From contig JANFNE010000087.1 of NCBI GenBank assembly GCA_024867545.1, forward strand, positions 1 to 64,000: a stretch of 64,000 bases of DNA, read 5' to 3'. The DNA comes from Phytopythium helicoides. Lineage: Eukaryota; Oomycota; Peronosporomycetes; Pythiales; Pythiaceae. How positions within the stretch are numbered: the first letter of the stretch is position 1; each line of letters opens with the position of its first letter. This document shows positions 23,306 through 59,835 of this stretch, piece after piece. The position numbers were made by a program, and so were the translations under genes. Under the pieces are notes generated by a model. It did not search any database and had not been told where the DNA came from. It was given only the letters and a program-made list of their open reading frames with translations.

Positions 23306-23325
23306 TCAAAGCATTTGGCCTCCGT

Positions 23326-23559
23326 ATGGTTGTCACTAAAGAATCTAAAGCCCAGCTTATCCAGCACGCATTCAAAGAGCAGCTGCCTGATCCTACGGGA
23401 GCACTCAGAGCGGAATACGACAAGCTCAAAGGCGAACTACTCATCGGCAACGACAGCCTCTCAATCAAAACCCAGCTGAAGCCTCTGGTGGTCGATATGT
23501 ACGCTAATCGACTAATTACTGATAAGGAGTTTAAGGAGGATATCGCTTTGCTAATATAG
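23326..23559 (+). CDS. hypothetical protein of the viral block (possibly 5'-truncated)
   Basis: A 77-codon frame rich in charged residues (KEFKEDIALLI at the end, DKLKGEL in the middle), predicted mostly helical. The frame remains open for about eight codons upstream of the ATG, up to the Copia breakpoint near 23305, so the true N-terminus may be lost. It stops 5 bp before the next ATG in the same direction. No function is recognised. Confidence 0.45.
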   Translation: MVVTKESKAQLIQHAFKEQLPDPTGALRAEYDKLKGELLIGNDSLSIKTQLKPLVVDMYANRLITDKEFKEDIALLI

Positions 23560-23564
23560 CCACC

Positions 23565-23831
23565 ATGATCCTGCTCAATACGACGTTCATCGACAAGACC
23601 AATGGACTTTACGCGCTTCAGGCTCAAGAGAACCTCTCCGAGTTACGCGAGCTCATGAAGAACCTCATCATCAAGCGACCGGAGCACTCCGAGACAATCT
23701 GGGCAACCGACAAGCCCGGCGTGAAGCTACCAACGGAAGGTGGCCGCGTCTGGGCTCATACTGGAGTCTACCGTCACAACTACGTGGCTCAAGGGAAGCC
23801 GCAAAAAAAGGTCAAAACGTTCGCCCTGTGA
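23565..23831 (+). CDS. hypothetical protein of the viral block
   Basis: An 88-codon frame with ccaccATG context. It contains LQAQENLSELRELMKNLIIKRPEHSETIW and a basic end (KPQKKVKTFAL). It is tail to tail with the fibre gene and overlaps its last codons at 23727-23831. Not recognised; possibly a small virion or regulatory protein. Confidence 0.45.
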   Translation: MILLNTTFIDKTNGLYALQAQENLSELRELMKNLIIKRPEHSETIWATDKPGVKLPTEGGRVWAHTGVYRHNYVAQGKPQKKVKTFAL

Positions 23832-25410
23832 GCTCAAATATTTTTTTTGGTTTTCGACGAGACGCACTCGTTCTTCTAACTCTTGGATAGCCTTCACAAG
23901 TACGACCACTATCCGCGTGTAGTCCATTGATTGTGTATCAGCACCATCCTTGACGCCATCGACGAGCTCCGGTATCTCAGCTTGAACCTCATGAGCGATG
24001 AAACCGAGTTGCTTGCCATACGCATCGTCGTATTTAAGGTCGTAGCAGATTGGCCTTAAGCGAAGCACTTGGGTTAATCCGTATGGGAGCTCTTCGATGT
24101 TTGTCTTGATACGGTAGTCAGACGGGTTGCTCGTTCCAGTACAGTACAATGTGCAATAGCCTGATCCAGCAACTGTATCAAAGGCATAGTTGTTATCGAC
24201 GCGTTGGAAACGAAAGTGCCTACCAGTGTCGATGTGAGAACCAATACCTACAAATGGAAACCCAGCCGACACATCAGTTGAGTTTGGATTGCGCATGCCT
24301 AAGACTGGTCGAGGCTCGCCGCCAGATGTGCGATCATAATAGAACTCAGCCTGAACATTGCCAGCGACCACGAGACGCTCGGCTATAGATTGCCTCACCG
24401 CTTCCGATATAGACTCGAGCACTTGAATTCCACTGAATTGTGGTTGATGAACCAAACAGACCTAGACCACCGTAACCGCTCCCTACAGCTGTTCTTGTAT
24501 AAACTCGTGTCAGAGCCTCTCCACTTGCTGTATTTTATCCCATGATCATGCTCAAGCTTGCAGATGTGCTTGGTGTCGTGAGTGTCGTATCAAAAGCTAG
24601 GATGCGGCGACTGGCTACAGAGTCCGACGTTACGCCAATGAGTAGCTTGTTCTTTGTCTGCATATTCGAAGCTGTTGGTAGGATGTAGCTTATTAGCAAT
24701 GGTGAAGACATCGATGAGTCTGTAGATAGTTCGCCTGTGTTTGACAGAATCATTTCATTCGATGAGTTGTTAAAGCACATATACGCTGGCAAAAGTGAGT
24801 TTGAGCTGCCTCGTGCCGTGGTAGACCATTGCGACGAAGGTGAGATGTTTTGGAGAGATATTGATGCAATACCAGTCGTGTCATTTTGAATGATTGTCAA
24901 GGCGTTGGTTGTCGTACCAGTGTTTGTGATATTTATACCGCTTGAAGCTGAGCTTACCGACAGCGAGTTTAACGTGTCTAGACTTGTTATTAATGGCTGT
25001 GAAGGCGTTTGCAGCGTCCCTGTTAGGCTAGTTGTCGTCAGCGAATTGATCCCGCTGATGCTACTGGATGAATCAAGAATCAATGCTTTGCTCGCACTTG
25101 CGGCTCCTGCTGTCACCCCTGTCAACGCTGACACATTCACTAAGTTCCCAGAGATCGCCAACGACGAGCATGAGAGAGCACCCAAATCGCTCAAGCTGAG
25201 ATCATTGCCCAGCACAAGAGCGACACCAGACGTCGCAATCCCAGGTGTGACCCCGCTGATGTAGCTCAGCCTGTAATCAAACCTGCTCAGGTAGAGAGTC
25301 TGTGCATAGGAGTAGCTGAGATAGCCGCTAGAGTCAAGTGAGAGATAGAATGCGAGATTGTAAATACTTGAAGAAAACAAAGGTCGTGGGTATGAGAACC
25401 CTGCACTCAT
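23727..25410 (-). pseudogene. fibre/spike-like protein with C-terminal peptidase S74 chaperone domain
   Basis: Minus strand from ATG 25408-25410. The stalk (25410-24535, 291 codons) is Ser/Thr/Leu-rich with repeating short strands (GDLSLSDLGALSCSSLAISGN, SSSISGINSLTTTSLTG), like trimeric beta-helical tail fibres. The end (24455 onward) holds the intramolecular chaperone of endosialidase type: SDYRIKTNIEELPYGL with the presumed Ser/Lys dyad, LRPICYDLK, GKQLGFIAHEVQAEIPELV, MDYTRIVVVLVKAIQELEERV. In this family the domain directs trimer folding and is then autocleaved. A frame change between about 24535 and 24455 disrupts this copy. The natural stop may lie near 23840; the frame as drawn reaches 23727 and overlaps the opposing gene. 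Divergent from the ATPase gene. Confidence 0.7.
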
Positions 25411-25423
25411 AATCTCCTCGACA

Positions 25424-25430
25424 TATATAG
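25424..25430. promoter_or_regulatory. shared TATATA box between fibre and ATPase genes
   Basis: The sequence tatatag lies 12 bp before the ATPase ATG (25443) and, read on the other strand as ctatata, 13 bp before the fibre ATG (25410). Similar boxes precede other genes of the block at about 26122-26129, 27722-27730, 28131-28150, 37556-37565 and 37877-37888. Confidence 0.5.
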
Positions 25431-25442
25431 ACCGCGAGAAAC

Positions 25443-26122
25443 ATGGTAACTGTGATTCCGGACTTCGGGCGTGAGATCCCCAAGAAATACCGTCAGCGCG
25501 GCGCAGGCGACATTGAGCAGCTGGGGATCAAGGCTCTGTTTCGTATGATAGTTCTTGGCCCCTCATTCTCAGGCAAGAACAACCTCTGTATGTTTATTCT
25601 CAAGCATTCTCCGCATGTATTCAGCCACTTGCATATCATTGCGCGCAACCCCCATCAAGAGCTCTACGAGTACCTGAGGGATAAGCTGGAAGGGTTTGTC
25701 ACGTTCTATGACACGCCACCTACTGTCGACACGATCAGACGCACCCCGATGAAGAAGCCCGAGCTCGTCATCATTGATGATTACAGCAACGACAAGGGGC
25801 TACAGAGGCAAGTGTTTAGTCATTTCTTCACTCGTGGGCGGCACTTCAAGCTCTCGACAATCTTCCTATCGCATAGCTACTTCGGAGGAACAGAGAAGCT
25901 CATTCGATTGAATGCCGAGTACGTCGCGATTCTAAAGGCAAACAGTAAACGCGACCTTCAATTGATAGTCTAGGACTTCAACATTCCAGGAGTCGATGAA
26001 GCGGCGATCGTGCGCTACTACAACAAAGCAACAGCTCACAAGGGGCAGATGCTGTTTGTTGATTCAGTCAAGAGCCAGCTGAGGTATAATTTTGACAAAC
26101 CGATCGATGTATCGGAGGAGTA
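25443..26122 (+). pseudogene. A32/FtsK-HerA-type genome-packaging ATPase
   Basis: The frame from ATG 25443 has the P-loop GPSFSGKN (residues 39-46) and Walker B LVIIDDY (108-114), followed by FFTRGRHFKLSTIFLSHSYF, the sensor region of A32-like viral packaging ATPases. An in-frame TAG at 25971-25973 interrupts it after residue 176. The same frame then continues for about 50 codons (DFNIPGVDEAAIVRYYNKAT...) to a TAA at 26120-26122, so the TAG looks like a nonsense change in a protein of about 226 residues. The usual Thr/Ser after the P-loop Lys is Asn here. The product would pump DNA into capsids. Followed after 15 bp by the penton gene. Confidence 0.85.
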
Positions 26123-26137
26123 ATATACGAGTCAGAG

Positions 26138-26984
26138 ATGAGCAGTTTTATGAAAATTGATAGCACCAACCTTGTCCAGAACGGGCTCAACAACCAATGG
26201 CGTTACTCATTCGTCGGCTCGAGTGTCAACTTTCAAGATGTAGTGTGCGCCATCCAAAGCATCAGCCTGTACAATAGTCAATTCAACATCGATGGATCAG
26301 CTTTCTACAACACGAGCTTTAAGATCGAGGTGCCCACAGCAGCCACGACATCAACTTTGACCATCAACCTCTCCGATGGATACTACAGCTACGCAGATAT
26401 CAACCGCACTATTCAGACGACTCTGATTAACGCTGGGGCTTAGCGTGTTCTATTTACAGATAGCAGAAAACTCGACGTATTACTCTTGTCAGCTTGACGT
26501 GACGCCTGTTCCTACCTCGTTACCTGCAGGCTACACTCGTCCTGCTGCGGGTTTGTACTCCTCAGGCGGATCGGGCTTGCCAACTGTTGCAAGAACGCCC
26601 CGTCTGATCATCGACAATGCTTGGTTCGGTTCGGTGCTTGGTTTCGCGCTCGGAACGTATCCATCTGCTAATCCAACAACGACAGCGACCAGTGTGCTAA
26701 GCAATTTGATTCCTCAGATCCATCCAAGTAGCTCTTACATCTTGCGATGCGATCTCGTCAAGAATGATTACGTGGTCAGTGGCGACATCCTTGCTGCATT
26801 TGATCGAGGAGATGCCTCTATTGGCCAACTGATTCATTACTCTCCGTCAGAGTACGCTTGGATGAATTGCCACAACGGACCCCGTAGCTCCATCACAATC
26901 ACCATTTTTGATAAGAACGACCGACCAGTGCACTTCAGAGACCTCTCGGTGTCCATTATGCTCCTATTCCGTTCAAAAAAATAA
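26138..26984 (+). pseudogene. penton / minor capsid protein (single jelly-roll type), frameshifted
   Basis: The first part (26138-26443) reads SSFMKIDSTNLVQNG, VCAIQSISLYNSQFNI and SDGYYSYADINRTIQ. It ends at a TAG, and the fold continues in the next frame from about 26445 to 26984: FYLQIAENSTYY, GFALGTYPS, SSSYILRCDLVKN, HYSPSEYAWMNC, RSSITITIFDKNDRPVHFRDLSVSIMLLFRSKK. This ends in the (I/V)x-L-LFR pattern seen in Polinton minor capsid proteins. A one-base shift around 26435-26445 separates the halves. The protein would form the pentameric vertices. An aatatacg box is 9 bp before the ATG. Confidence 0.7.
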
Positions 26985-27004
26985 AGCTGACTCGTATCTT
27001 TTTT

Positions 27005-27718
27005 TTACTGAAGAGTGAAGCTTCCACCGCACTTCTTACCACGAGCCGCTCGCACAAGAGCCATGCGCTGCTTCGCTTGTTCCGATCCCTTGACAGCTAC
27101 TCCTACGCCATAGCGCTTCTTGATTTCACCTCGCACGTCTTTGATTAGACTTGCCTGAGCAAGTGCACGACTGATGGCAAGCTTCTCAAGCTCATCGACA
27201 GCATCAGATAGGACGCCCTTGTCCTTCATGTACTTGATTGCTTGCTTGCCGCGCTTCTTGACTGTCGACATACTAATCCCTGCACCTTCGCCAACACCGA
27301 CCCCAGTGAGCTTCTTCAACGCGGCTCGTGCTGGAAGAGCCCCTTCAGGGGCACCTAGAGCAGTCGCTGCGGCAGGAACAGCTACGTCAGCGATTTTGCT
27401 CAGCACACCTGATTCTTTAGCCCACTTGTAAGCCTTCTTGATCCCGCCCCAGATCTTGGTCCAGATGGATCCGCCGTAAATACCACCACCTTGAAGATGC
27501 TTGAAAGGGTATCCAATCTCCTTGTGACTGATCTGCAGCCGAGTACCTTTGCCGGCTCGACGTGCCTTGATGGCTTTCTTGTAGGATTCGGGGTGGAGAT
27601 GAAGTGTCGCTCCTGAGCCTTTCAGATCAGCTGTGCTCAGTGTTAGGGTGCCAGACTTGAATGCTCGTTTGAGCTTGGACTCAGGGATGTCACTCGAAAC
27701 CTCAAGCTCCTTGTACAT
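27005..27718 (-). CDS. pVI-like minor virion protein with protease cleavage motifs
   Basis: An intact 237-codon frame. Residues 75-84 (LQGGGIYGGS) contain two sites fitting the adenain-type consensus (M/I/L)XGG/X. They are followed by an amphipathic, aromatic/basic helix (WTKIWGGIKKAYKWAKE) and an Ala/Val-rich hydrophobic stretch (DVAVPAAATALGAP). This organisation, a propeptide then a membrane-active helix, resembles adenovirus pVI and equivalent Polinton/PLV proteins. The basic C-terminus ends in KKCGGSFTLQ. The protease gene lies directly upstream in the same direction, 14 bp away. A tatatt-like box is just before the ATG. The pVI link is inferred from layout, not from alignment. Confidence 0.65.
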   Translation of the reverse strand: MYKELEVSSDIPESKLKRAFKSGTLTLSTADLKGSGATLHLHPESYKKAIKARRAGKGTRLQISHKEIGYPFKHLQGGGIYGGSIWTKIWGGIKKAYKWAKESGVLSKIADVAVPAAATALGAPEGALPARAALKKLTGVGVGEGAGISMSTVKKRGKQAIKYMKDKGVLSDAVDELEKLAISRALAQASLIKDVRGEIKKRYGVGVAVKGSEQAKQRMALVRAARGKKCGGSFTLQ

Positions 27719-27732
27719 CGTGCTATATTTGC

Positions 27733-28110
27733 TTAGAGAATTTTAATATTCAAATCACGGAACCCTTTCGTCAAGAGATTTGGCTTATTGTGCTGCCTAG
27801 CGTAGAGGAACAGCAGTGACCAAACACCGCAATACTCGTCATATGCTCCTTGTAGTTGCACTTCGTTGAACTTCCGTACGCCAAACCGCGAGGGTGGACC
27901 TTCTCCCATCGAGTCAAACCACTCTCCGTTGTAAAGAGCCGTCCAGTGCCCCACCCCACCACCTTTCCGGAGGAGGATTAGATACGAACCGCGACGAGGT
28001 AGGGGACCGATCACTTCTGGTGCATCGTAGATAGAATCGATGCGTACGCCGATTCGATTTGCTAGCCTGATAAGATCCTCATCGCTTGTCACTGCCTTGA
28101 TCAGCTCCAT
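27733..28110 (-). CDS. adenain-like (C5/Ulp1-type) maturation cysteine protease
   Basis: An intact 125-residue frame. The catalytic layout is that of adenovirus-type proteases: GGVGHWTALY (His55), EWFDSMG (Asp66), NEVQLQGAY (oxyanion Gln85 or Gln87) and EYCGVWSLLF (Cys94). It is shorter than adenain (about 200 residues), like PLV and Polinton enzymes. It would cleave minor capsid precursors at GG-type sites during virion maturation, and the neighbouring gene encodes such sites. It is divergent from the major capsid gene, whose ATG lies 44 bp away, and they share the intergenic ctatat region. Confidence 0.85.
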   Translation of the reverse strand: MELIKAVTSDEDLIRLANRIGVRIDSIYDAPEVIGPLPRRGSYLILLRKGGGVGHWTALYNGEWFDSMGEGPPSRFGVRKFNEVQLQGAYDEYCGVWSLLFLYARQHNKPNLLTKGFRDLNIKIL

Positions 28111-28154
28111 TATTTAATTTTTGATTCAGGCTATATGAAGGATCAATATAAGCC

Positions 28155-28169
28155 ATGACGACGCAGCTT
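28155..28169 (+). pseudogene. first five codons of the major capsid gene, cut off by Gypsy
   Basis: The ATG at 28155 opens the capsid frame. The LTR begins at 28170, directly after the target sequence agctt. The same frame resumes in phase at 35661, after the second agctt copy. Confidence 0.8.
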
Positions 28170-28761
28170 TGTAATGGGGCGCTGTCCACGACAGTCCCCA
28201 AAACACGGCACACACGCTTGCGCTTGAGGAAGACTTGGCCTCTCCCGACTTGGAGGGAGGAGGAAGGAGACTTGAGATGAAGGCGGCAAATTTGCAACTG
28301 AATTGAAAAGCTTATGGTTCCTGAATCCTACGAGCATAAAACCACTAGGGTCCTATGGGGTTAAATGCAATCAACCTACAAATGCAATATAAAACCTTGG
28401 GTTGAATCAGGTTGAACTTGAAGCTTGGACCAGGAGAATGTTCTCCAACTTGAACTTGAACTTGAGCTTCGGGTTCTTCAACAAAGAACCTCTCTCTCGC
28501 CACGTGGCACGTTGTGATTGGTTGAAACCACGAACATGTACCCACAATGACACGTCGGCTTCGTCACTAGAGAGAAATCCAGCAGGAACCATCTTCATGC
28601 ACAGAGACACGTGTGCAGAGAGCACTCGAGAATGCTTCGAGAACATTCCGTGCGGTCGCAATCATTGATTGCTCCCGTGAGTGTGTCTCACACCAGTCTG
28701 CTGCCACAGACACCAATCTGTGACCAGATTGTGTCATGTAATGGACATGGGGCCCATTACA
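28170..28761 (-). repeat. Gypsy LTR (3' LTR of the minus-strand element)
   Basis: 592 bp with TG..CA ends (tgtaatggggc ... cccattaca). Sequence identical to 35064-35655 on reading. Confidence 0.92.
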
Positions 28762-28779
28762 TCATCCCCCCCTTAAAGT
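28762..28779 (-). promoter_or_regulatory. polypurine tract of the Gypsy element
   Basis: On the minus strand the sequence ctttaaggggggggatga directly abuts the 3' LTR. It is the expected primer for plus-strand DNA synthesis. Confidence 0.75.
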
Positions 28780-28828
28780 AGCGACCACTCGCTCTCTTTG
28801 GGGTGCTTGACTCACTTTCGAAACCGCT

Positions 28829-29887
28829 ATGAAGCGATCAAGTGACCAAGCATCTCTCGAAGAACCCGCAGTGCGCAAGCATCAGCGCCGGGCTCCAGAA
28901 CTCTTCGATGTGACTTCCATCTGCCGTCGGGTGGGAGACACAGAGTACTATAAGGAGCGGTTCTTCCGTTGGCGTCGGATCAACAATCGTGATGATCCGG
29001 ACCAACCTATCACAGCCAAGGCAGACTCTTGGCGAGCCTTTGTTCGCCTTGAGAACGAGGGCAAGATGGAGCGCTTGCTCAGCAAGACTCCAAGTCACGA
29101 CAAGGCAGCCCATGGCCTTCGTCGCGGTAGCGTCTCCAGCGACGCTACAAGCTTGCCTCGTAGCTGCGGACCACGTCGGGAATATCAGACTCAAGGGTCT
29201 GTCTCGGTTCCCACGTGTCCAAACTCGGTGGGTAGCCGCGCCACCGAACTCGATAGAAGCGTTGACGAGTCAACCGCTTCTTCCCACGAGTCTGTCGGTC
29301 CTCGTGACCAACAATCGACTCCACGATCCATCGATGCTCTCCCTGATGATCGATCAGAGGAGGTGGGGCTGAACGCGAAAACGATCGAGCGGCTCTGGAA
29401 GTGGAAGAGTGCTCATCGTGCGCAGATCGAGGCACTGGAAGTTCGCGACGCGGTTCTCGCTGACCGGTGCGATAGCCTCGAGGACCAGCTGAAGGAGCAG
29501 GAGTCAATACTTGACTCGCTGTCCGATGGTCCAGCCCAGCGTTCGGCATTGGAGTCCCGTTTTGAGCAACGGTTCGAGCAAGTTCAGGCCGAACTTGAGC
29601 GACTCCAGAAGACTCAGAAGGCTCGAGAGGCATTCCATGAGCGTCTGCTTCTCTCTGTGGAGGAGGCAGGGACTGCACTCGAGGTACTTCGTAAGGAGTA
29701 CCAATCTCGCCTTCTTGCGTTGGAAGCAGTGAAGGAGGAGTCCTTCGATGTGCTTCAGCGCCTCTATGCCGAGAAGATGCTCCATGACGATGAGTTGAAG
29801 ACCAAATGGAGCAACTTCATGATCGTATGGATCACTCGCGCAAGGCTCACTAGGGTCTGCGGACCCACTTGGAAGGTAAGGCTTTAG
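28829..29887 (+). other. long ORF antisense to the Gypsy chromodomain region
   Basis: A 352-codon open frame on the plus strand, opposite the pol linker and chromodomain. Its N-terminal hundred codons lie beyond the pol stop. The first part is basic (VRKHQRRAPELFDV, YYKERFFRWRRINN). The last 150 codons predict a strong coiled coil (IEALEVRDAVLADRCDSLED, VQAELERLQKTQKAREAF). The pol linker on the other strand looks like a genuine proline-rich Gypsy linker, so the antisense frame could be accidental. Alternatively it is a captured or evolved antisense gene. No function is recognised. Confidence 0.35.
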
Positions 29888-32800
29888 TCTGCCCACGTAA
29901 AACGTTGGGTGCAGACGCATGCTCGTTGGGATGTCTAGTGTGTAGGCATCACCATTGCATTTCACCACCGTGAACGGTCCAATGAACCTTGGCAGAAGTT
30001 TCGAACTTCCCAGGTTGGACACTGCATATTCAGGCAGGTTCGCCGAACTAAGCAATACAAGATCATTGACCTTGAAAGATTGCTTGTTCTTCCTTCCACT
30101 CTTGTCTGCGTTTTGCTTTTGCAGATCCTGAGCCTGTGCGATTGCGTCTCGAACAAACCTCACAACGGCTTGTCTCCGCACGACAAAGTCATCGACTAGC
30201 TGCTTCTCGCGACCAGTTAGTTTATCTAACGGTTTCATTGATTCAAAATTGGCATTGAACTCGATGGCAGCATTCAGGTCATCATCTGACTGCGGCGTAT
30301 TGTCATTCGCCGTAGTCCCTCCCCCACTTAAGGTAGAGACCTCTCCCACTAGTGACGCTGGTACTCTCGGATGGAGACCGTAGTTCACATAGAATGGGGA
30401 GTGACCCGTCGAGACATGCGTGGAATTGTTCAACGCAAACTCGCAGAGAGGGAGAAATTCACTCCACTCTCTAAATGACGTAGCGTAACTACGCAATACG
30501 TCTTCAAGGACACGATTCACTCGTTCCGTTTGACCGTCCGTTTCAGGGTGCGCCGCTGTTGACATAGACAGCTTGGTGCCCAACAATTTGAACAATGCGC
30601 GCCAAAACTTGGATGTGAAGCGGGTGTCACGGTCTGACACGATCTCAGTTGGCAAGCCGTGCAAACGGAATACCACATCCAAAAAGACCTTGGCTGTCTT
30701 CTCGGCTGAGATCTTGTCCGAAACAGGAGCAAGATGGACCATCTTGCTGAATCGGTCCACAAACACCAGGATCCCATTCCTGCGGTGCTTGTCTCGTGGA
30801 AGTCCGAATATAAAATCCATGCTCACGGACCTCCAACTGTCCTGAGGGACAGGCAATGAACAAAGTGGGGCCTGCGTGGAGCCTGAAGGCTTCACTCGCT
30901 GGCAGATCTCACAGGTCTTCACATACTTGCGAACCCACTTGTACATGTGTGGCCAGTAGTAATCTCGGGAAAGACTGAGAAATGTCTTCTCTCGTCCGAG
31001 ATGGCCACCCGAAGGGCTGTCATGATACTCATACAAGAGTCGATGACGCACACCCTCATCGTTGGGAACAACAACTCGTTCTGTATCCCCATCTTCAACC
31101 GCGTAGTACAACAACCCATTGTGTACTCGAAAGCGGTGAACGCGCGATCTTGTTCGTGCTGGGAGACCTTGCAGTGCCTTGTCAGAGGGATTCTTGAAAT
31201 ACTTGAGCAAGTCCTGACAGGTCTCGTCAGACTTGTATCCCTCGATGATGTCTTCGCGCACTGAAGTCGAAGCTTGAACTGCGATCGCTTGAACATCTTC
31301 GCAGAGTCGACACGCTTCGTCCGGATCCTCGTTCTTGGACTTGGGATCATAGTCCGGACGTCTTGACAAGGCGTCGGCTAGGATGTTCATCTTGCCTGGC
31401 TTATAGTGCACAACAAAGTTGTACTCCGCAAAGAAGGAGAGCCACCTAACCATCCTTTGGGACAAGTGAGGAGTCTTTACCGCTGTTCGCAGCGACGCAT
31501 GATCTGTGTAGATCGCAAAGCGCTCCTCGCCAAGCAAGTATACACGGAACTTGACTAAGGCATACTTCATCGCAAGAAGTTCCTTGTCATGAACTGGGTA
31601 GTTCCGTTCTGCGGGTCGGAGTTGTCGTGATTGATACGACACTACTCGCTCTCGGCCCTCATCATCGTGTTGCATCAAAGCGCAACCGATGGCATAGTCA
31701 CTTGCATCACAGACGACGTGGAACGGCTTGTCGTGGTTCGGAACAGCCAGCACAGGAGCTTCACGAAGACTCCTCTTGACTTCTTCAAACACCGCTTTGT
31801 GATCTTCAGACAACTTCCACTCAACGTCTTTCTTCAACAGTTGTGTGAGAGGCTGCACTAACGCTGCATAATTGCGCGTGTACTTGTGCAAGTAGTTGGC
31901 CAGACCCAACCACTGTCGTAGCTGTTTGACGTTCTGAGGCGCGGGCCAATCGTCAATAGCTTTGACCTTCTCCGGATCGACTCGAACACCATTCTTTCCC
32001 ACAAAGCAACCGAGAACAGGAATCTCAGGGGCAAAGAACACGCACTTCTTTAAGTTTGCGTAGAGCTTGTTCTCACGCATGACCTGGAATACTTGACGAA
32101 GATGATCAAGATGAACATCAACATCAGATCTTCCGTCCACGGCCTTACTATGAACGAATATATCGTCAAAGTAACTTGGTGCAAATGTTCGCAAAGGACG
32201 AAGAACATTCGTGACCATGCGTTTGAAAGTCGCAGGTGCATTCTTCAGTCCTTGTGGCATCACTAACCATTTCCACAGCATACCACTCGGGGTACTCACT
32301 GCGGTTAGTGGGACATCGCTTTAGCGCATTCGAGGCTGATAGAATCCATCCTTCAGATCGATCGCACTGAAAACGGTGCTGCCAACCATTCCATCAAGGA
32401 TCATGTCCTTGCGTGGAACCGGAGTCTGAGCGGGAATAGTTGCATCATTCAGCTTGTTGAAAGCATGAACGATGTGCCATCCGCCAGTCGCCTTCTTCAC
32501 ACAGAAAGTGGGGCTGCAGTGCGGGGACTTGCTTTCTCGCACATGACCAGCCTTTGCGCGTTGTGCAAAGAACTCGTCGATAGCATCGACTTGCTCCTTT
32601 GGCAACGGCCACTGTCTAGTGATACAGTACTTCGTGCCAGGAAGTACATCAATCTCGTGACGAATGCCTCTGTCAAATGGCAGTTCGTCCGGCACCTTGT
32701 CGGGGAATATGTCCTCAAACTCCCGGACAAGCTCATACACGGGGTTCTCCTTGAGGGCATCCCATGACTGCTCCTCGAACCTTTCCTTCCGTGTCTTCTC

Positions 32801-34012
32801 GTGCAACACTTCAGCATCCACACTCGATGATGTGTTGACGAGGTCTTCGTCGATTGCCTCAACAATCGCGCAAAGCTGCGAAATTTCGCCTTTCGCCAGG
32901 CTACGCATAAGCGCCTTCTTGCTCATCACGGGCAAGGAAACCAAATCTTCGACTGAACTTGGAGGATTTTCAATCTTCACGTGACGGAACACATCGACGT
33001 CACCATCTTCACCGTAGACCACGACGTTCGCATAACTGCTTGTGATGCCTCTCTGTGGGTCACCACCTTCATCGCCTTGACTCGCATCTTGATCAGGGAT
33101 GCTTGACGACGGAAAACTCTCTTCGTCGGGTTTCTTCATATCTTGGGAAGGATCTTCACACTTCACGCCATGACGAGCTTTCTCGTCACCAATGGCAAAG
33201 GAGACAGTCTTTTTCTGGCGCCTGACTGCTCCACCTCCAGTAGTCGTCTCGGGCTTGTCTTGTGGGATTGAGGGGCCATCGCACTCCTGAGTCCCAATCG
33301 ACGCATCTTCCACAGACGCATACGCCCAAATCACTTCACCTGCTGCAACGCAGCCCAGGTCTTCGTTGACACTCTTGTCGACGGAAATCTTCATCTTCAT
33401 CCAGTCAATGCGAGGTTGGTAACGCTTCAACCATGGCATGCCCAGGATGATGTCAAACTTGTCATCGAGATCGAGGAGAATGAAATCGTCCTCGCCTCGG
33501 AAATCTTCAAACTCGATTGCCAAGCGCACGGTTCGCTTAGGCATCTTCACAGTCGACCCATTGGCCAACCGAACAACCATATATTTCGTCGCATCGTGAG
33601 GAGTCTTGTCACTCCCGATCACGACTTTCGCTCGAACAAAATTATTCGACGCTCCAGTGTCAACCAAAGCACGTAGAGGCGTTTCAATACCATCTACATG
33701 AACTTTGAGCATGATCAGAGCAGTGCTCTGACTGACACTTCCATCACTCCTCGTGGAAACTGCACGTGCCTCATGCACATCGGGGCCAGAGTCCTGTGTC
33801 TCCACAACATTCACAGTCCTCTTGTCGGGCCCAGTAGGGAGCCCCGCCCCTACTGGTCGTTCCCGTTTTTTGACCCTTGGGAACGGTCGAACCGGCGGCC
33901 GAAATTTCGGTTGCTGTTCTGGTTCGAACGCGATCCTTGTGTCTCTTGCCGATTCGGCAAGGACATCTTGCAGTTTCGAGCGATATGACCCGGCTTCCCG
34001 CAACGGAAACAT
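29145..34012 (-). pseudogene. Gypsy pol: protease, RT, RNase H, integrase, chromodomain
   Basis: The pol frame overlaps gag by about 160 nt in the -1 frame, suggesting -1 frameshifting. Protease: LRALVDTGASNNFV. RT begins FCVKKATGGWHIV and FSAIDLKDGFYQ, is hit by a TAA at 32321-32323, and continues in the same frame with SGMLWKWLVMPQGLKNAPATF and SYFDDIFVHS. RNase H: FHVVCDASDYAIGCALM. Integrase: an HHCC finger (HLGREKTFL...CEICQRVK), MDFIFGLP, VSDRDTRFTSKFW, HPETDGQTERVNR. After GRLKPYLPSG a one-base deletion near 29805 shifts into the frame with the linker and chromodomain (HRWIVESIVGHEDRQ, FYRVRWRGYPPSLDTWEPR), ending at 29145. The chromodomain directs insertion to marked chromatin. Confidence 0.88.
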
Positions 34013-34893
34013 TTCCCATCGTTGCGAGGACGCTTGTTGTCGGTATGTTGGACATACGACAGATCCATCGGCTCTGGTCCATTGTTAGCCGACGATGTCA
34101 CGCGGACTTGACGTGGAACTGGTCCACCGAACTTGGCTTGCTTGATGCTGAATTCTTCTTGCATCGCTCTCTCGATGGCTTGATCCAGCGTCGTCGGGTA
34201 TTCGCGGAACAGTTGGTTCCGGATCGGTCCATCGTCCAGACCGGCCATGAATGTGACAACTTGTGTTGCCATATCGATCGGCTGATCCACAATGCACGAC
34301 ACGAGATATCGTGCGCGTTGTGCATACGAGTGGAGGTCTTGGCGTCCTTGTTGAAGCTTGAGAAACTCGGCACGAGCACGAAACTCGCTCTGCGGAGGCT
34401 CGAACGCGCGCTTTAGCTCTTGCTTGAAGTCGTCGAGGTTGTAGAAGCATGTTGGCTCCGCCAAACGCTTCCCAAACGCCCAACTCTTCGCTCGACCCGC
34501 AAGGTTGGACATTGCGAACAACACTTGCTGCGTCGGGTCCCGGAGCTGTCTTGCAGTCACTGCTGCATCCAACTCAACGAACCATCTCGCCAGAGGTTCG
34601 TTCTCTCCGCCGCGATACGGGGAGATGTCGAGCTTCAGAGGCGTTACTTTCATCGTCGAGACAGGAGTTGCGGGCTGTCGACGAGAGTCCATGACCTCAT
34701 GGTGCATGAAGCTCACTGCCGCGCTTCGCTGCTCATCCGGAGAGGCTGATCTCAACAGTGTGATCACAGCTGCCTCACCGATGACTGCGCTCATCCGCTC
34801 GAGGGCTGCCCACTCATGACCGGACAAATGAGGAAACTGCTCATTCGTCAGCGTCACTTGGTCTTCGTGCAGCACACTCGTCGGAGTCTCCAT
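33850..34893 (-). CDS. Gypsy gag (retrotransposon gag domain, zinc knuckle)
   Basis: The start ATG at 34891-34893 gives METPTSVL; the frame is also open upstream to 34968. The gag core includes RGGENEPLARWFVELDAAV, GRAKSWAFGKRL and EFRARAEFLKLQQGRQDLHSYAQRAR, the capsid-like retrotransposon_gag pattern. Near the C-terminus is one CCHC knuckle (CFRCGKPGHIARNC) followed by an Asn/Arg/Gln-rich tail. The frame is intact. The protein forms the particle that packages element RNA. Confidence 0.85.
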   Translation of the reverse strand: METPTSVLHEDQVTLTNEQFPHLSGHEWAALERMSAVIGEAAVITLLRSASPDEQRSAAVSFMHHEVMDSRRQPATPVSTMKVTPLKLDISPYRGGENEPLARWFVELDAAVTARQLRDPTQQVLFAMSNLAGRAKSWAFGKRLAEPTCFYNLDDFKQELKRAFEPPQSEFRARAEFLKLQQGRQDLHSYAQRARYLVSCIVDQPIDMATQVVTFMAGLDDGPIRNQLFREYPTTLDQAIERAMQEEFSIKQAKFGGPVPRQVRVTSSANNGPEPMDLSYVQHTDNKRPRNDGKCFRCGKPGHIARNCKMSLPNRQETQGSRSNQNSNRNFGRRFDRSQGSKNGNDQ

Positions 34894-35043
34894 CCCTTCT
34901 GCTGTCTGCGCAATAGACAGGGAGAGTCTTGAAAGGAAGTGCACAAAGGGCGAAAGCCTCTTTGTCAATCCTCTTCTAGAGCAGGGTTCACGAAGTGCTC
35001 AGCGCAACTTCGGCAATCCCTTCTAGGAAGGTCGCAGGAAGGA

Positions 35044-35061
35044 CCTCTCGAAGTGCTACCA
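35044..35061 (-). promoter_or_regulatory. primer-binding site of the Gypsy element
   Basis: On the minus strand, two bases after the 5' LTR, the sequence tggtagcacttcgagagg starts with the TGG expected to pair with a tRNA 3' CCA. The exact tRNA was not identified. Confidence 0.6.
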
Positions 35062-35063
35062 GG

Positions 35064-35655
35064 TGTAATGGGGCGCTGTCCACGACAGTCCCCAAAACAC
35101 GGCACACACGCTTGCGCTTGAGGAAGACTTGGCCTCTCCCGACTTGGAGGGAGGAGGAAGGAGACTTGAGATGAAGGCGGCAAATTTGCAACTGAATTGA
35201 AAAGCTTATGGTTCCTGAATCCTACGAGCATAAAACCACTAGGGTCCTATGGGGTTAAATGCAATCAACCTACAAATGCAATATAAAACCTTGGGTTGAA
35301 TCAGGTTGAACTTGAAGCTTGGACCAGGAGAATGTTCTCCAACTTGAACTTGAACTTGAGCTTCGGGTTCTTCAACAAAGAACCTCTCTCTCGCCACGTG
35401 GCACGTTGTGATTGGTTGAAACCACGAACATGTACCCACAATGACACGTCGGCTTCGTCACTAGAGAGAAATCCAGCAGGAACCATCTTCATGCACAGAG
35501 ACACGTGTGCAGAGAGCACTCGAGAATGCTTCGAGAACATTCCGTGCGGTCGCAATCATTGATTGCTCCCGTGAGTGTGTCTCACACCAGTCTGCTGCCA
35601 CAGACACCAATCTGTGACCAGATTGTGTCATGTAATGGACATGGGGCCCATTACA
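35064..35655 (-). repeat. Gypsy LTR (5' LTR of the minus-strand element)
   Basis: 592 bp, identical on reading to 28170-28761. It is followed by the target copy agctt at 35656-35660. Confidence 0.92.
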
Positions 35656-37377
35656 AGCTTGCAGATCAGTTCCTTTTCCAGTCCTCTCTTAAGAGCGATC
35701 CAGAAATCAAGGTCTCTCAGCGTAAGCGGGTCCCTTTTGTAATCGATATCAACCAAGGCAGTTATGCGAATGGTGTTGTTACGATCGATGCCACTTCACA
35801 GCTAAACGGTGCCGAAGGCTTTGGTTCTCTTCGTGATGCCTATCTCATTGTACCGTACAAAGTCAGCATGAAGAACACGCATGCATCGGTTGCTCTCGGT
35901 GCCGCTGCTAATCGTCTCAGTGTCGGACTAAAGTGTGGGGTCTGGAACGTGATCGATAGTATGAGTCTGGAGCTTAACGGCAAGACTGTCGTGAGTATGC
36001 AAGATTACGCTCTATTTGCTAACAACCTACGAGCCCAGACGGAGTACTCAACAGGCTACGTTGACAAGCATGGTGCTGAGTCATACCTCTTCCCCGATTC
36101 GGCGACATCGACGGTGTGGAGCTCTGCCGCTAGCACGAATGGCGATGGGTATTGCAACAACACGGCCAATATTGCGGGTAATCCATCGATTGGAGGCGTC
36201 CTTCCCGCGAACCCTGGCTTTGTGAACCGACTATTGTGTAACCCTCCTTTGTCCTCGACGAACACTTTTGGATGGCCGACTATTCCCTCTGCTTCGTCGT
36301 CTGTAATTTCCAATCAGGTTGGGCGTGGCGCGTTCGTGGCCGGTGCTGCGACGGCAGGGGCGATTGCAGGAACGTGGAACTACATGCTCAAGATTCGTCT
36401 CGTGGATCTCCATCCAATCTTCGACCACCTTGACCTCATGGCGAACCCTCAGATCAAGTTGCGTCTCCGGCTGAACCAGGGGTCGGCTGTGATCACTTCC
36501 AATGCATCATCTCAGATGACTCTATCATCAGTGACGCTAGCAAGCGGCAACGTTTGCCCCACCATGGTCAGCTCATCTCAATCAGGTTCTCCAAACAATA
36601 CCGTTGTACCAGCGAGCGGTCAATTTACGGTTGCATGGGGGGGGGGGGGGGGGGGGGGGGGGGGGGCTGTTACTAACTCGCTTGAACCTGCAGTTGATTC
36701 AACCTACTTGCCGTTTACGACCGTTCGTCTCTACGTCCCATTCTTTGATCTCGAAAACCCTCAGGCTCTTATTAGTAAGCCGGAGAAACGAATTAGATAC
36801 TTGTCGTATTACCCCCAGTGGTTCTACCAGCGCGCCGGAGTCGGTGTGAAGGGGGATGCAGCATAACACCGCTTTCGACCTACAGCTGTCAGCTAGCTTG
36901 AAGAATGCTAAGCTCGTTGCATTGTTCCCTTTCGCAGAAACATCCTCTGGTAATTTTGCTTCATCGACTTGCCAGCAGTTCCAGAGTCCATTCGACAGCG
37001 CCTCATGGACGGTGCAAGCTGGGAGCGCTATTCGGAATTTCAACGTTAGGATTGGCAGTCAGCAAGCCTTTGATTTGAATTTCGATTACAGTTGGCATTC
37101 GTTTGTAAATGAGTTTGCTAAACTAGGAGCTATCAACGGCGACCTGACGGAGCAGCTATCAAACGGTTTGATCGACATGCGTACATGGGATCTGACCAAT
37201 CGAGTCTTGATCGCCGACGTAAGTCGTATGACAGAGAAGGACGTACCTCAATCGATCCAGATACAAGGAGTGAACGCTTCTGCGCAAGGAGTCAACCTTC
37301 TGGTACTCGTAGCGTACGAGAACGAGCTGGTGGTTAATCGACTCACAGGGGAAGTCACTGATTACACGGCGTCGTGA
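35656..37377 (+). pseudogene. major capsid protein (double jelly-roll type), main part
   Basis: The frame resumes at 35661, after the target duplication, and runs to 36866. It then needs a one-base change near 36850 (a run of five G) to continue from about 36856 to 37377. Motifs include SQRKRVPFVIDINQGSY, GSLRDAYLIVPYKVSM, GVWNVIDSMSLELNGKTV, YMLKIRLVDLHPIFDHLDLM and LKNAKLVALFPFA, with an ending VNLLVLVAYENELVVNRLTGEV. Size (about 575 residues), strand-rich content and neighbours fit Polinton/PLV double jelly-roll capsids. The first five codons lie at 28155-28169, beyond the Gypsy element. Inside the gene is a 30-G run. Product: hexon-like capsomer. Confidence 0.8.
36637..36666. repeat. poly-G homopolymer (30 nt) inside the capsid gene
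   Basis: Thirty consecutive G, encoding a Gly run between VAW and AVTNSLEPAVDS. It keeps the frame. The length may be an expansion or an assembly inaccuracy. Confidence 0.9.
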
Positions 37378-37553
37378 TCAAGAAAAAATTTACATGTTCT
37401 TGTAGCATTCGGATCATATTCAAGTGGTCTTGTTGGCAGCTGACGGAACGTCGGTGGCTCATACCGGTACGGCTGGGGTGGAGGCTTACAGACGTATTTG
37501 ATGCGATTGTCGAATGGCGGTGACTCGGGCACGTCAACGTACTCGATGTCCAT
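37362..37553 (-). CDS. small Pro/Tyr-rich hypothetical protein of the viral block
   Basis: A 63-codon frame (YVDVPESPPF, CKPPPQPYRYEPPTF) that overlaps the end of the capsid gene tail to tail by 16 bp. A ttatatctag box begins 3 bp upstream of the ATG. Pro/Tyr-rich motifs such as PPxY-like runs could interact with host sorting factors, but this is speculative. Confidence 0.45.
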   Translation of the reverse strand: MDIEYVDVPESPPFDNRIKYVCKPPPQPYRYEPPTFRQLPTRPLEYDPNATRTCKFFLDHDAV

Positions 37554-37561
37554 TGTTATAT

Positions 37562-37873
37562 CTAGAGGATCTTTGCTAACTCAGTTCGCAGCTTGTTCAT
37601 CTTCTCTGAGAATGGAGACGTCATAAGCCATTGGAGATACGGGCGGTCAATTTCCAGCACCTGTAATATTGATTTGTTTTTGTACTTGCCGAAGGTAAGC
37701 AGGTAGCTGTCATCGCTGCCCTTTAATTTCTCGTCGAGATACGCTTTGAGCTTCTGCTTGGCCTGCGTGATGATCTCCTGGCTGTGCACCCACCGCATGT
37801 ATCTCGGGTCTTCTGCGTACACCTCATCGAAGGTTTTCCCCTTGTACTTCCCGAAATCGATCTCGGCCATCAT
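37562..37873 (-). CDS. protein with two exonuclease-X C-terminal-like (FGKYKGK) repeats
   Basis: 103 residues with two related halves: FGKYKGKTFDEVYAEDPRYMRWV (about 7-29) and FGKYKNKSILQVLEIDRPYLQWL (about 61-83). The FGKYKGK...V...D..Y..W pattern is that of the small domain at the end of exonuclease X-type proteins and related short phage/viral proteins. It probably binds nucleic acid or a partner, and no nuclease core is present. A ctatatacctag box is 3-15 bp upstream of the ATG, so it belongs to the same expression set as the capsid genes. Confidence 0.6.
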   Translation of the reverse strand: MMAEIDFGKYKGKTFDEVYAEDPRYMRWVHSQEIITQAKQKLKAYLDEKLKGSDDSYLLTFGKYKNKSILQVLEIDRPYLQWLMTSPFSEKMNKLRTELAKIL

Positions 37874-37888
37874 GTCCTATATACCTAG

Positions 37889-38749
37889 CTAGATCTTTTT
37901 CGTGAAAAAAAAAAAATATTTTTTGCAATCTGACCAGCACGTCCCTGAAGATCTGGAGGTACCCCTTTATTCTCGATCAGCAAAGGATATTGAGATTGCA
38001 AAATTGATGAGGGATTCTCGCTGATTGGCTGATGAGGTTCTCTTTTGTCCAATGAGCGCACATGAACGCTTCTGATTGGTTCATTAAATCAAGGAGACTT
38101 TTCATCAATTCTAGGAGACTTTTCATCCTGTATGGGAGGATTTTCATCCTGTATGAGAGGTTTTGTGTCACTATGAAGGGGCGTGGTGACCAGAGACCCA
38201 GAACTATAAACCGCACTGCTTCACATTTGTAGGGGCACCCTACGTACCCATCACTTGCACCTAGTATGAGGAGATCGTGACTTGCTTTTACTATTGAGCG
38301 CAGGGAGGGAGGTCATGGAGCAGTAGTATTTGTCCTTTGTATGCTTCCACCGTCACGCTAGCATTGATTATGAGGAGATCGTGACTTGCTTTTACTATTG
38401 AGCGCAGGGAGGGAGGTCATGGAGCAGTAGTATTTGTCCTTTGTATGCTTCCACCGTCACACTAGCACTGAGTATGTGGACGTCATAGAGCTGCCGACGC
38501 AGGGTTGAGAGACGGCATTCTCGAAATTTCCAGACAAGAACCACAACGACGCACAGCCGCACACTGCCAATGCCGCACGCCACCACGCCACGCTGAGCTG
38601 CAGAACCAGAGCCACGCTCCGACAACCGCACGCATGCCACCACGCAGAGCCCCACACGCCGAGCCGCACGACGCACGCCACCGCCAAGAGCCCACGCCAC
38701 GCAGAACCGCACCACGCACCACAGGGAGGGGTAAAACCATCGCTAATAA
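37889..38749. other. repeat-rich non-coding DNA right of the viral block
   Basis: A run of 12 A near 37906-37917, then near-repeats of aggagacttttcatc / aggattttcatcctgtatg at 38090-38160, then the 104-bp tandem duplication, then a CAC/GCC-rich stretch at 38530-38710. No gene is supported. A terminal repeat of the viral element could lie here but was not identified. Confidence 0.5.
38265..38472. repeat. 104-bp tandem duplication
   Basis: The unit starting tatgaggagatcgtgacttg at 38265 is repeated from 38369, with only a couple of substitutions (for example cgctagcatt versus cactagcact). Confidence 0.9.
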
Positions 38750-39253
38750 AGGAGATTCTCTGAATTTCATTCTCGCTTTTGCGACTACACCCCGATTCCA
38801 TCGTTTACCGAGCTGCAGTGCGCCAAGTTCCAGGCACGCTACCTCTCTCTTTCCCCCTACGCCGAAGCATACAAGAATGGTTCGATCAGCTGCAGCGCCT
38901 TCAATGTATCCGGCGATCGATGCAGCAAGATGGTGAAGACTAACGTTGCTCCAGCATTCTGCTCCCACGTACATGCGAATGGAATCCCATCACCTGAACT
39001 CACGGAACTGGTTGGTGTAGAGAGAGAAATCGTATCCAACATCAGACAGATGATGAAGATGGGTGAGCCTGCGCTCCAATACTTTCTTCATGAGTCGCGC
39101 CGCCACCTCCAACGTATCCTCGAACAAGAAGCTATGAAGCAGATGGAACGCATGCGCCTTGCCCCGTCCTCCCAGCCACGCATCGAGCTCGTTGAAGAGG
39201 GACAGCCGATGGTGAGCTACGGCCCCTACCGCGACCCGTACCCAGATCTTTAG
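38750..39253 (+). CDS. hypothetical protein, 5' end unclear
   Basis: The frame is open from 38750 (after a TAA at 38747-38749) to the stop at 39251-39253. The first ATG in it is at 38930. The part before that ATG looks coding (TELQCAKFQARYLSLSPYAE, CSAFNVSGDRCSKM), so it may be an exon whose start is upstream or lost. The C-terminal part is charged and helical (LHESRRHLQRILEQEAMKQM). No family was recognised. Whether it belongs to the host or to the viral block is open; there is no TATATA box near it. Confidence 0.4.
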   Translation, partial: RRFSEFHSRFCDYTPIPSFTELQCAKFQARYLSLSPYAEAYKNGSISCSAFNVSGDRCSKMVKTNVAPAFCSHVHANGIPSPELTELVGVEREIVSNIRQMMKMGEPALQYFLHESRRHLQRILEQEAMKQMERMRLAPSSQPRIELVEEGQPMVSYGPYRDPYPDL

Positions 39254-39423
39254 GTAGAGCAGGGGCGCGGAACAATGCGCTAGTCGAAAGGCTACAGTGA
39301 GTAACGCTGAATACTTGACGTCGTTGACGTGGATTTCATTTTGAACATTCTTGAAGTACGGTGGATGATCCGCGACCTACTGCTTAGCCTCGTGGTGACC
39401 TCACTTCGCATTTCGCATTGAAG

Positions 39424-40093
39424 ATGAACGACCCGTGCGAGGAGAAGATCACGTTTGGTCCGACTACAACCAAGCTAGCTGTCAAGCCTGTGTATGGTCG
39501 GTTCTCGTTTGGATCCGTCAAGCCAGTGACGAACATCGATTACCGCAGGCGTGCGACTGAACTCCGCGATGAAGCTCGTCGCCTCGATGAGGATGCTGCT
39601 CGATATGAAGAAATGCTGGTGACCGAGGGCGCGAGCAAGGCGGAGTTTGCCCCAGCTGCAAGCGACCAAGCACCAAGCAGCATTATGGTCGCCCGTGCAC
39701 GTCGCGGCAGGGGTCCTCCTCGCCCAAAACCATTGAGATGTGCACGTCGCTCCGGGGGCCCTCCTTCACCCAAATACACCGACAATTCCCACGATTCAGG
39801 AGCTGCTGTTGGAGTCGTATCAACAGAACAGGTTGCTCCTGCGCGAGCAGTACGTGGCGGACAAGATCGAGTACCCTGCTCTCCGTGAATGGATCGAGAA
39901 GCAGGTTGGTAAAGATTTCCACCCGGAGCACGTCGAGCACTTTGTTCGATGCGCAACACCAGCGGAGCAAGAAGAGCTCGACCGGGAAAGTTACTTGGCC
40001 ATGGCGATGGAGGACTACGAGAAATGGAAGGAGCAGAAGGCCGAGGAAGAGGAGATGAAGCGCCTGCACGAGAAGTACGCGGTTCGGAAGTGA
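39424..40093 (+). pseudogene. hypothetical protein broken by a short internal duplication
   Basis: From ATG 39424 the frame has KLAVKPVYGRFSFGSVKP and a helix RRRATELRDEARRLDEDAARYEEM. At about 39688-39775 an imperfect tandem repeat (gtgcacgtcgc... twice, about 44 bp apart) occurs. After it the protein-like sequence continues in another frame to 40093: IQELLLESYQQNRLLLREQYV, EHVEHFVRCATPAEQEEL, EEMKRLHEKYAVRK. The duplication probably shifted the frame. It is a helical, charged protein of unknown role. Confidence 0.45.
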
Positions 40094-40469
40094 GAGGACG
40101 ACGAAATGAAGGAGTGATTGCATGATGAGTTCTGAGCGGTAGGTTGTAGGAGAGGATAACCTATCATACATGCATTGATGTTTACATCCACGATCGTGTA
40201 TCCGCGTATGGTCTGGTGCTTAGGAGGACTTTATTTGGGAGAAACGATGTGTCTAGAGGTGTTGTGCGCGCGTGTAATGCAAAGGAGAAATGGGCGGTGA
40301 TAGATTGTTTGGCTGAAATGACTGCATTCGCTGAGAGGCTACGATCCGTCTGTTCGTTGAAAACATTTGCTCATGCCGAGAGGCAACGAGAGGGTTATCT
40401 TCGCGAAAGATACGATGTGAAGGTACATGAATCAAAAACCGTTCGCGTACCGTGCTGGTACATACTACT
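40094..40469. other. intergenic, no supported gene
   Basis: Only one ORF of weak character (about 40216-40500) is seen. It runs into the inverted repeat, and no features support it. Confidence 0.5.
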
Positions 40470-41040
40470 CGAGCTCCACGAGCACGTTTTCGGTGTGTAG
40501 TGGTGTTTGGTGTGCAGCTCGTCGCTGGTTCTCCTGTTGGGGGCTGCGGGTGGCGTCACTTCAGCGTCGGGCGACTTTGGAAGTTCGCTTAGAGGAAGCG
40601 TGGTGTGCTGGAGCAGCGGCGGCATCAAGCTCAGTTGTTAACTGTAGTAATTATAATGGGATTCCATATCACATCCAGAAAAAGTGCAGTGGAAGCAGGA
40701 AAATGTGGAAATGGAGGTCGCGATCCCGAAGCTCACGCTGCTTCCATGACCTGTAGCTGCTACAGCAGTCATAGTTGGTGTGCACGAAGGCAGTTTTGGA
40801 ACTAAACATCCTACCGAGTTTCATGCCGTATCGATCGATTCTTCGTTTACCTCGTAAGTGTCCCATTTGGCTTCATGGTTAGTACAGGCATTTCGTGTTA
40901 GTGAGAGCCGTCTCCAAAGTTTGCTGTCCACACATTTTTCGCTTATCCGTTTTCAGCATGCATGTCTAATTCGATGCTAGAAGCGGGCTTTACTAGGAGT
41001 GTTGTGGTGTGGCATCTAGAAGGCCTGCACTCGCTCGTGA
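40470..41040. other. left arm distal segment, no supported gene
   Basis: Contains part of a Ser/Gly-gene-adjacent sequence and short ORFs only. The mirror segment is 58282-58852. Confidence 0.5.
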
Positions 41041-42406: not shown

Positions 42407-42738
42407 TTTAGGGCTCGGCGACCTGTTCTGATACCGACAAGAACGCTCTTGGAACAAGATTACTGGTTACGTGTCCATCTGCCTCACGGTACGGCCACTG
42501 TTGACAACAGTCTGACGTTGAGACCCTCGCCTTTTCTAGTATTCTACTGTACAGTAGTATGCATGAAGCGCTGGCTCGAGAAGACTGTAGACGCAACATT
42601 GTCAATCGAGTATTGCACAGCATTGCTGACTCGCTAGGCCTCTACGGCATGATCTAAGGTATGTCTGATTCTTGCACCTAACGTCCTGTCACAACCGTTT
42701 CACCACCACGCCACCGTTCACATCACGCGGAGCTATGC

Positions 42739-44601: not shown

Positions 44602-44790
44602 GTCGAAACCGTGGAGCTAGTTTGTCGTGTGAATGGTAGATTCGATTGTGTGAGTGCCGCCTCTCGGGTCGGCATCGATGCGAGGACGACGAAAGCGGCG
44701 ATTATCCTGTTGCATCCGGAACTCTGGGCGAGTAACAGCAGGGTCGCCTCCAGACTCCATCCAGCGATTACGACAAGTCTCAAGGCAAAA
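44602..44790. promoter_or_regulatory. 5' region of the ABCG gene
   Basis: The intergenic stretch between the transporter start and the 122-bp repeat. No clear motif was singled out. In the right arm the same sequence forms one divergent promoter region with the uS11 gene. Confidence 0.4.
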
Positions 44791-44912
44791 TCTCTCGCCG
44801 GTCGTGTCACCACAGAGAATGCTCTCGGACTAGCTGTTGCCGCCCGTTGGGGACAAAAAACAGGCGTTTTCGGAGATTATGACTTTGAGATCGTCACAAT
44901 CAAAGCCACATT
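44791..44912. repeat. 122-bp direct repeat, copy 1
   Basis: Matches 47187-47308 in the same orientation (tctctcgccggtcgtgtcac ... caatcaaagcc) with one clear difference near the end. The two copies bound a 2.27-kb segment absent from the right arm. Confidence 0.9.
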
Positions 44913-45014
44913 TGTCAGCATGCAGTGTTCGAAGCACTGTTCGTCGTTGTAGGACAGCTAACTTTCCCGTCAAGTCTCACTTTGCATAATACGACGGCCA
45001 AGGCGAGAGACCTA

Positions 45015-47186: not shown

Positions 47187-47308
47187 TCTCTCGCCGGTCG
47201 TGTCACCACAGAGAATGCTCTCGGACTAGCTGTTGCCGCCCGTTGGGGACAAAAAACAGGCGTTTTCGGAGATTATGACTTTGAGATCGTCACAATCAAA
47301 GCCGCATT
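47187..47308. repeat. 122-bp direct repeat, copy 2
   Basis: See 44791-44912. This copy runs directly into the 5' region of uS11. Confidence 0.9.
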
Positions 47309-59834: not shown

Positions 59835-59835
59835 G

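Follow-up and report, generated by a model that had tools for sequence, protein, structure and literature searches.

A truncated, retrotransposon-split Polinton in an oomycete genome, with signs of fibre-head exchange between co-resident virus lineages

Capsid-encoding mobile elements have been described from oomycetes before. According to the available parts of PMC7805220, fifteen oomycete elements include four with both an RVE integrase and a protein-primed family-B DNA polymerase (pPolB), three with one of the two and five with a helicase-primase and a tyrosine recombinase, and a Gossevirus capsid occurs in Phytophthora infestans; capsid copies reach 299 per oomycete genome in the accessible text of PMC10120064. 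S74 fibres are ubiquitous in the polinton-like viruses (PLVs) of most eukaryotic groups, and retrotransposons disrupt PLV genes, as the portion of PMC12220804 at hand describes. The DNA considered here is a stretch of 64,000 nucleotides (nt) from Phytopythium helicoides (contig JANFNE010000087.1, positions 1 to 64,000; hereafter the window), which makes up the initial 64 kb of contig C87 (85 kb) in an assembly of 49.06 Mb and 100 contigs. We are highly confident that the window contains an integrated Polinton reduced to its right half, the one with the virion genes, and split by a Ty3/gypsy long terminal repeat (LTR) retrotransposon.

The original prediction of an endogenous Polinton in an oomycete chromosome is supported. 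The host assembly contains 64 matches to the elicitin domain, which to our knowledge belongs to a family found only in oomycetes, whereas 14 control genomes have none; this identifies the host as an oomycete. Terminal repeats, polymerase and integrase are present in sister copies of the element. Polinton-type genes of the window occupy 23347-28169 and 35656-37938, on either side of the retrotransposon. Window positions 23958-28168 and 35658-37938 are colinear with positions 37281-41530 (88.5% DNA identity) and 41529-43794 (78.6%) of contig C40, where the two segments adjoin each other. Because the cluster is colinear with this second locus and the ratio of nonsynonymous to synonymous substitution rates (dN/dS) between the copies is low, the virion genes did not come together by chance.

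The span 23306-37888 had been taken as a single virion module; the virion cluster in it is real, but 28170-35655 is a Ty3/gypsy LTR retrotransposon on the minus strand, inserted in the capsid gene. Its LTRs (28170-28761 and 35064-35655) are identical over 592/592 nt, start with TG and finish with CA, and are flanked on both sides by the 5-nt target site duplication (TSD) AGCTT (28165-28169 and 35656-35660); the identity of the LTRs points to a recent insertion. Between them the minus strand encodes gag, aspartic protease, reverse transcriptase, RNase H and integrase, and the rve integrase within the earlier span is the retrotransposon's own. The insertion point lies after codon 5 of the capsid gene, whose ATG is at 28155. 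Two other placements of the capsid were rejected: the frames of 28170-35655 are Ty3 gag-pol, and the methionine at 35526 lies in LTR sequence, the first ~45 residues of that open reading frame (ORF) being LTR-derived and 60 of its 67 matches falling in its first 60 residues.

The packaging ATPase motifs, the order of the protease residues, the pVI-like protein, the penton candidate and the capsid candidate (35661-37377) were all located as first described, and a fibre gene missing from that list was added. The remaining element begins on the left with the 3' part of a small ORF (23347-23556, plus strand; 81% amino acid identity over 70 residues to an ORF of C97 by tblastn). The fibre gene (23727-25410, minus strand) matches Pfam PF13884, chaperone of endosialidase (E 5.4e-12), with its S74 domain C-terminal at 23961-24122; it carries a stop at 24535-24537 and a frameshift near 24400, and is 92% identical to the C40 fibre across two frames. 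The A32-type packaging ATPase (25443-25973, plus strand; Pox_A32, E 2.7e-6, 27.5 bits against a cut-off of 22.8) contains GPSFSGKN and LVIIDDY and is 96% identical to that of C40 (tblastn); an in-frame stop ends it at 25971-25973, and the similarity to C40 extends to 26120. The penton (minor capsid) candidate (26138-26984, plus strand) shows 90% amino acid identity to C40 in two frames, with a frameshift near 26440; the C40 and C88 versions share 34%. The open frame at 27005-27718 (minus strand) encodes a basic protein that we take, by resemblance, to be pVI/pX-like; it is 92, 84, 67 and 38% identical to its counterparts on C40, C97, C80 and C88, and neither Pfam nor a scan of viral contigs gave a match. 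The open frame at 27733-28110 (minus strand) encodes a putative adenain-type (C5-like) cysteine protease, in which H, D, Q and C follow in that order and are invariant in 4/4 aligned copies; it has no Pfam match and is therefore named by its motif. The major capsid gene opens with five codons at 28155-28169 (plus strand; the C40 frame begins MTTQLADQ) and continues at 35656-37377, in two pieces with 92 and 88% amino acid identity to C40 and a frameshift near 36860. A small protein with two ExoX-like C-terminal repeats (37562-37873, minus strand; Pfam PF20600, E 1.9e-21, two stretches) has relatives on C40, C80, C97 and C88. Most of these genes are broken, the ATPase, penton candidate, fibre and capsid by stops or frameshifts and the capsid also by the Ty3 element; truncated and recently invaded as well, the window copy is dead.

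For the capsid, all seven Foldseek matches of the C40 model with E <= 0.001 are capsid proteins, from adintoviruses, mavirus, a virophage, an ascovirus and giant viruses. The matches have 12-13% identity and TM-scores of 0.14-0.19, and were ranked by 3Di and sequence together. The predicted capsid identity is supported by the ranking, not by a confident model.

The sister copies supply the half that the window does not contain. Their gene order is left terminal repeat, polymerase, rve integrase with chromodomain, accessory ORFs, fibre, ATPase, penton candidate, pVI-like protein, protease, capsid and the small ExoX-C-like protein; the window copy supplies the right terminal repeat. Family-B polymerase (PF03175) exceeds the cut-off on C36, on C40 and twice on C50 when neighbouring stretches are counted, and in 0/14 control genomes; when the C40 and C50 polymerase frames were scanned against Pfam as individual proteins, PF03175 was not matched. 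The C40 polymerase frame (760 amino acids) is internally deleted relative to a 1346-residue frame on C50, and the C40 integrase scores 31.9 bits for rve, just below the cut-off of 32.6, and 37.9 bits for Chromo (cut-off 25.1). The integrase lies ~1.1 kb from the C40 fibre frame, which ends in unrelated sequence, and C97 has the same genes as C40, with stops and frameshifts. An rve integrase occurs at six element loci in the genome, a count that leaves out a weak 38% match on C90, and four of them retain open frames of 392 amino acids. Open integrase frames are present on C50 (two copies) and C41, together with polymerase and left end on C50 and the left end on C41; neither contig yielded the capsid, ATPase or pVI gene, the three sought there, and similarity in one of the C50 copies ends ~0.5 kb past the integrase. 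The polymerase frame at C50:157991-161971 (L044) matches HNH/endonuclease VII families at residues ~780-865. The polymerase-integrase halves at C36:442732-450000 and C97:24258-31530 are 99% identical and have a common left flank, so they represent one duplicated locus rather than two insertions. A divergent element or remnant at C84:1-10000 (L047) has a pVI-like fragment (32-36%), an ATPase-like frame read by eye and a Ulp1/C48-type protease.

The element on C88 is of another type. It has its own capsid (a frame of 582 amino acids), an HNH endonuclease and a 1093-residue protein with primase-helicase matches (DUF5906, 66.6 bits, and phage primase families). Its tyrosine recombinase candidate had no meaningful library match and is named from sequence reading and context. 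The end repeats are identical over 774/774 nt, and no target duplication is visible at the ends. Tyrosine recombinases leave no duplication and rve integrases leave one of 6 bp, as stated in the accessible part of PMC12220804, and the ends of the C88 element fit the predicted recombinase. Two primase-helicase copies in opposite orientation, 52% identical to that of C88, were also seen at C24:1065002-1067260 and C24:1083616-1085874. In the window, 5597-5857 holds two C88-type end motifs in facing orientation, separated by 6 nt (AATTTA); one side (5645-5857) shows 76% identity to the outermost 234 nt of the end repeat on C88, and the opposite side matches over 41 nt. The same paired motifs, again 6 nt apart, occur at C81:58736-58779. 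The pair at 5597-5857 might mark a junction, or what is left of a target, of a recombinase-type element.

In 5/5 ATPase loci of this genome (window, C40, C97, C80 and C88) the ATPase and a fibre gene with an S74 domain are arranged head to head, and in viral contigs a divergent fibre-like gene adjoins the ATPase relative in six of six cases (30-32% ATPase identity), one of these genes (L069) starting in another frame. Ten viral-contig fibre-like genes were compared with Pfam, four of them having a phage tail collar domain and six no match; two compared with PHROGs gave no match. Phage tail-fibre families are matched well by the C80, C97 and C88 fibres and weakly by the C40 fibre. The C88 fibre base is linked to environmental fibre bases at 28.3 bits (best shuffle 3.9 in one run, 10.7 in another); against the same bases those of the window and C40 reached 2.5 and 1.1 bits, under the best shuffles.

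Fibre bases track lineage in this genome, and heads do not. C80 resembles C40 in capsid (74%), ATPase (65%), pVI-like protein (66%), protease (61%) and fibre base (57-59%, and 74% across two short broken-frame pieces at the N-terminus). Its fibre head, however, matches that of C88 at 76% over 423 amino acids and that of C40 at only 31% over 151. Elsewhere C80 and C88 share 22% in the capsid, 26% in the ATPase and 36% each in the pVI-like protein and protease. Conversely, C40 and C97 share 92% over the first 52 amino acids of the fibre base and 63% over the next 62, and in the head only 39% over 46 amino acids of the S74 part. Between the window and C40, compared in 60-nt steps, the head is 97-100% identical at 24678-25217 and 95-96% further in, the fibre base and intergenic DNA (25218-25457) 63-87%, and the ATPase 90-100% except for one step at 77%; this profile could be due to recombination or to uneven constraint. 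Exchange of heads on conserved bases is the simplest account, although four fibres are few. We lean towards the view that receptor-binding heads are exchanged as cassettes between the Polinton (polymerase/integrase) and PLV (primase-type) lineages that reside together in this oomycete, each lineage keeping its own fibre base. The exchange would take place where fibre and ATPase genes stand head to head, an arrangement also present in environmental viral contigs. Two observations weigh against this view: C80 and C88 also share 40% over ~105 amino acids outside the head, with shifted register in a repetitive shaft, and the C80 fibre base lies in broken frames. It is improbable that the head common to C80 and C88 instead evolved slowly under strong constraint with no exchange. 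The shared fibre region does have a low dN/dS (0.10), but the head is hardly alike in C40 and C97 despite their common backbone and fibre base, and so is not slow-evolving within the lineage; moreover, the DNA likeness of C80 and C88 is concentrated in the fibre (1105 nt at 73% plus an adjacent 94-nt piece), the only other match inside the elements being 138 nt at 70% and a longer shared repeat falling outside the C88 element. Of two S74 matches on C9, at 36723 and 536414, the protein at C9:536414 was rejected as a further virus copy; it adjoins a glycoside-hydrolase-like frame read by eye.

The left-end motif AGTAGTATGTAATGGCACGGT occurs without mismatch at five places (C50 twice, C97, C36 and C41) and with four mismatches on C40, and the flanks outside it differ between the independent sites compared (C50 twice, C40, and C97/C36, which share one flank). 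Its complement closes the window element at 40469 (21 nt, 40449-40469, three mismatches; matched by 0/100 shuffles). The right terminal inverted repeat (40191-40469, minus strand) includes this motif and homology to the left end of C97 (78% over 148 nt, plus 37 nt at 81% further in), a comparison that uses ends of different copies. Inside it, 37940-40190 contains a 104-nt tandem repeat and has partial relatives at C27:5419-6945 and C24:2240281-2241512. An arm of a host duplication starts at 40470, the base directly after the element, and its inverted copy at 54397-58852 continues at the matching point into MULE-like (Mutator-like element) sequence and not into Polinton, a junction that does not prove an empty site. 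On the left, the last Polinton match is at 23347, beyond which lies degraded copia sequence (read by eye).

The original prediction had left open a truncated element or a polymerase-less lineage; truncation stands, and membership of a polymerase-less lineage does not. A PLV or virophage-like element replicating via another virus is very unlikely here. It would account for a window with no polymerase or integrase, and a primase-type relative does exist on C88; against this, polymerase and integrase accompany the same virion genes on the closest copy, C40, and also on C97, an indication that the window copy lost them, and the left edge of the window element cuts an ORF that continues in C97. A plausible misreading is thus settled in favour of a truncated, retrotransposon-split Polinton. 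Several results still weigh against that reading. The window gave no polymerase or integrase match attributable to the element, a TSD is not demonstrable with the left end lost, and no copy with both ends was found. Capsid and polymerase have no relatives in the viral contig collection. Mean pLDDT is 35 for the capsid model, too low for the two-jelly-roll criterion of the original prediction to be applied, and 42 for the penton model, which has no significant fold match. Neither protein has a match in Pfam or among PDB sequences, formally the other refuting outcome that the original prediction named, although these libraries may simply lack such families; the fold ranking favours the capsid, and nothing comparable does so for the penton.

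The virion genes are under purifying selection between copies. Window versus C40, dN/dS is 0.08 for the ATPase (176 codons), 0.10 for the pVI-like protein (237), 0.09 for the protease (125), 0.06 (390) and 0.03 (170; dS 3.2, near saturation) for the capsid pieces, 0.08 for the penton piece (185), 0.09 for the small protein (102) and 0.20 for the N-terminal part of the fibre (279); in comparisons with C80, dS is mostly saturated and no ratio is given. Such low values imply that the copies diverged while the virion genes were functional and that the defects came later. The pattern fits separate integrations of a replicating lineage, and gene conversion between copies may also have contributed. 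Low dN/dS could be cited for capsid-like genes domesticated and kept by the oomycete, a hardly tenable explanation given that frames are broken in the window, C97 and the C80 fibre, that virus-type ends occur at several loci and that a retrotransposon lies within the window capsid.

By analogy with known Polintons, adenoviruses and S74 fibres, an undamaged element would replicate by protein priming, its ATPase would package the DNA into a capsid of double-jelly-roll type, which the protease would mature, and S74-trimerised fibres on the pentons would attach the virion, the rve integrase integrating the element. When two such viruses share a cell, heads might be swapped, which would alter what the virion binds.

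The surrounding window is rich in transposons, including, besides the Ty3 element, a LINE-like element (~13.4-22.5 kb, frames read by eye), a copia element (48.4-52.4 kb) and a MULE (61.0-62.8 kb). The MULE region (58928-63816) has long imperfect terminal repeats, one strand reading as Gly/Ser-rich repeats. The host flank at 40470-44925 differs from its inverted copy at 10 positions in 4456 nt, and a second inverted pair (47187-48229 and 53489-54531) at none in 1043 nt. This duplication surrounds the copia element and contains an ABC-transporter frame read by eye; it may be a genuine, recent event or a fold-back introduced in assembly. Scans of the window for tRNAs and, at gathering thresholds only, for Rfam families were uninformative.

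By Foldseek the capsid ranks with those of adintoviruses and mavirus, whose hosts differ from the oomycete host. The window element itself belongs to a published kind, the oomycete capsid-bearing Polintons. As in the Polinton/Mavericks with Gossevirus-group (GKS1) capsids treated in the available parts of PMC7805220 and PMC10120064, pPolB and rve integrase accompany virion genes and terminal inverted repeats; there too, Polinton-type and helicase-primase/tyrosine recombinase elements are both present, and Ty3/gypsy elements often lie near virus insertions. The locus had been valued as evidence of a virus of oomycetes, which is correct but already reported in the accessible text of those two papers. 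A word search of both for S74 and endosialidase, unlike the present fibres, found none. The cryptophyte and protist PLVs of PMC12220804 share S74 fibres and retrotransposon-broken genes, and their rve integrase gives TSDs, within the part of that paper available; the same part discusses replacement of polymerases but no fibre-head exchange between lineages of the kind proposed here. In the open-licence literature searched, including the accessible portions of PMC7805220, PMC10120064, PMC8204020 and PMC12220804, we found no description of such exchange between Polintons and PLVs. The fibre result is the part worth following, a single-genome case in which attachment modules and capsid backbones seem to differ in history. 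Such differing histories would help explain host changes and the repeated re-entry of capsid-encoding mobile elements into oomycete genomes, and, if the exchange is true, distinct virus lineages would draw their attachment modules from a common pool, as is the case in tailed phages.

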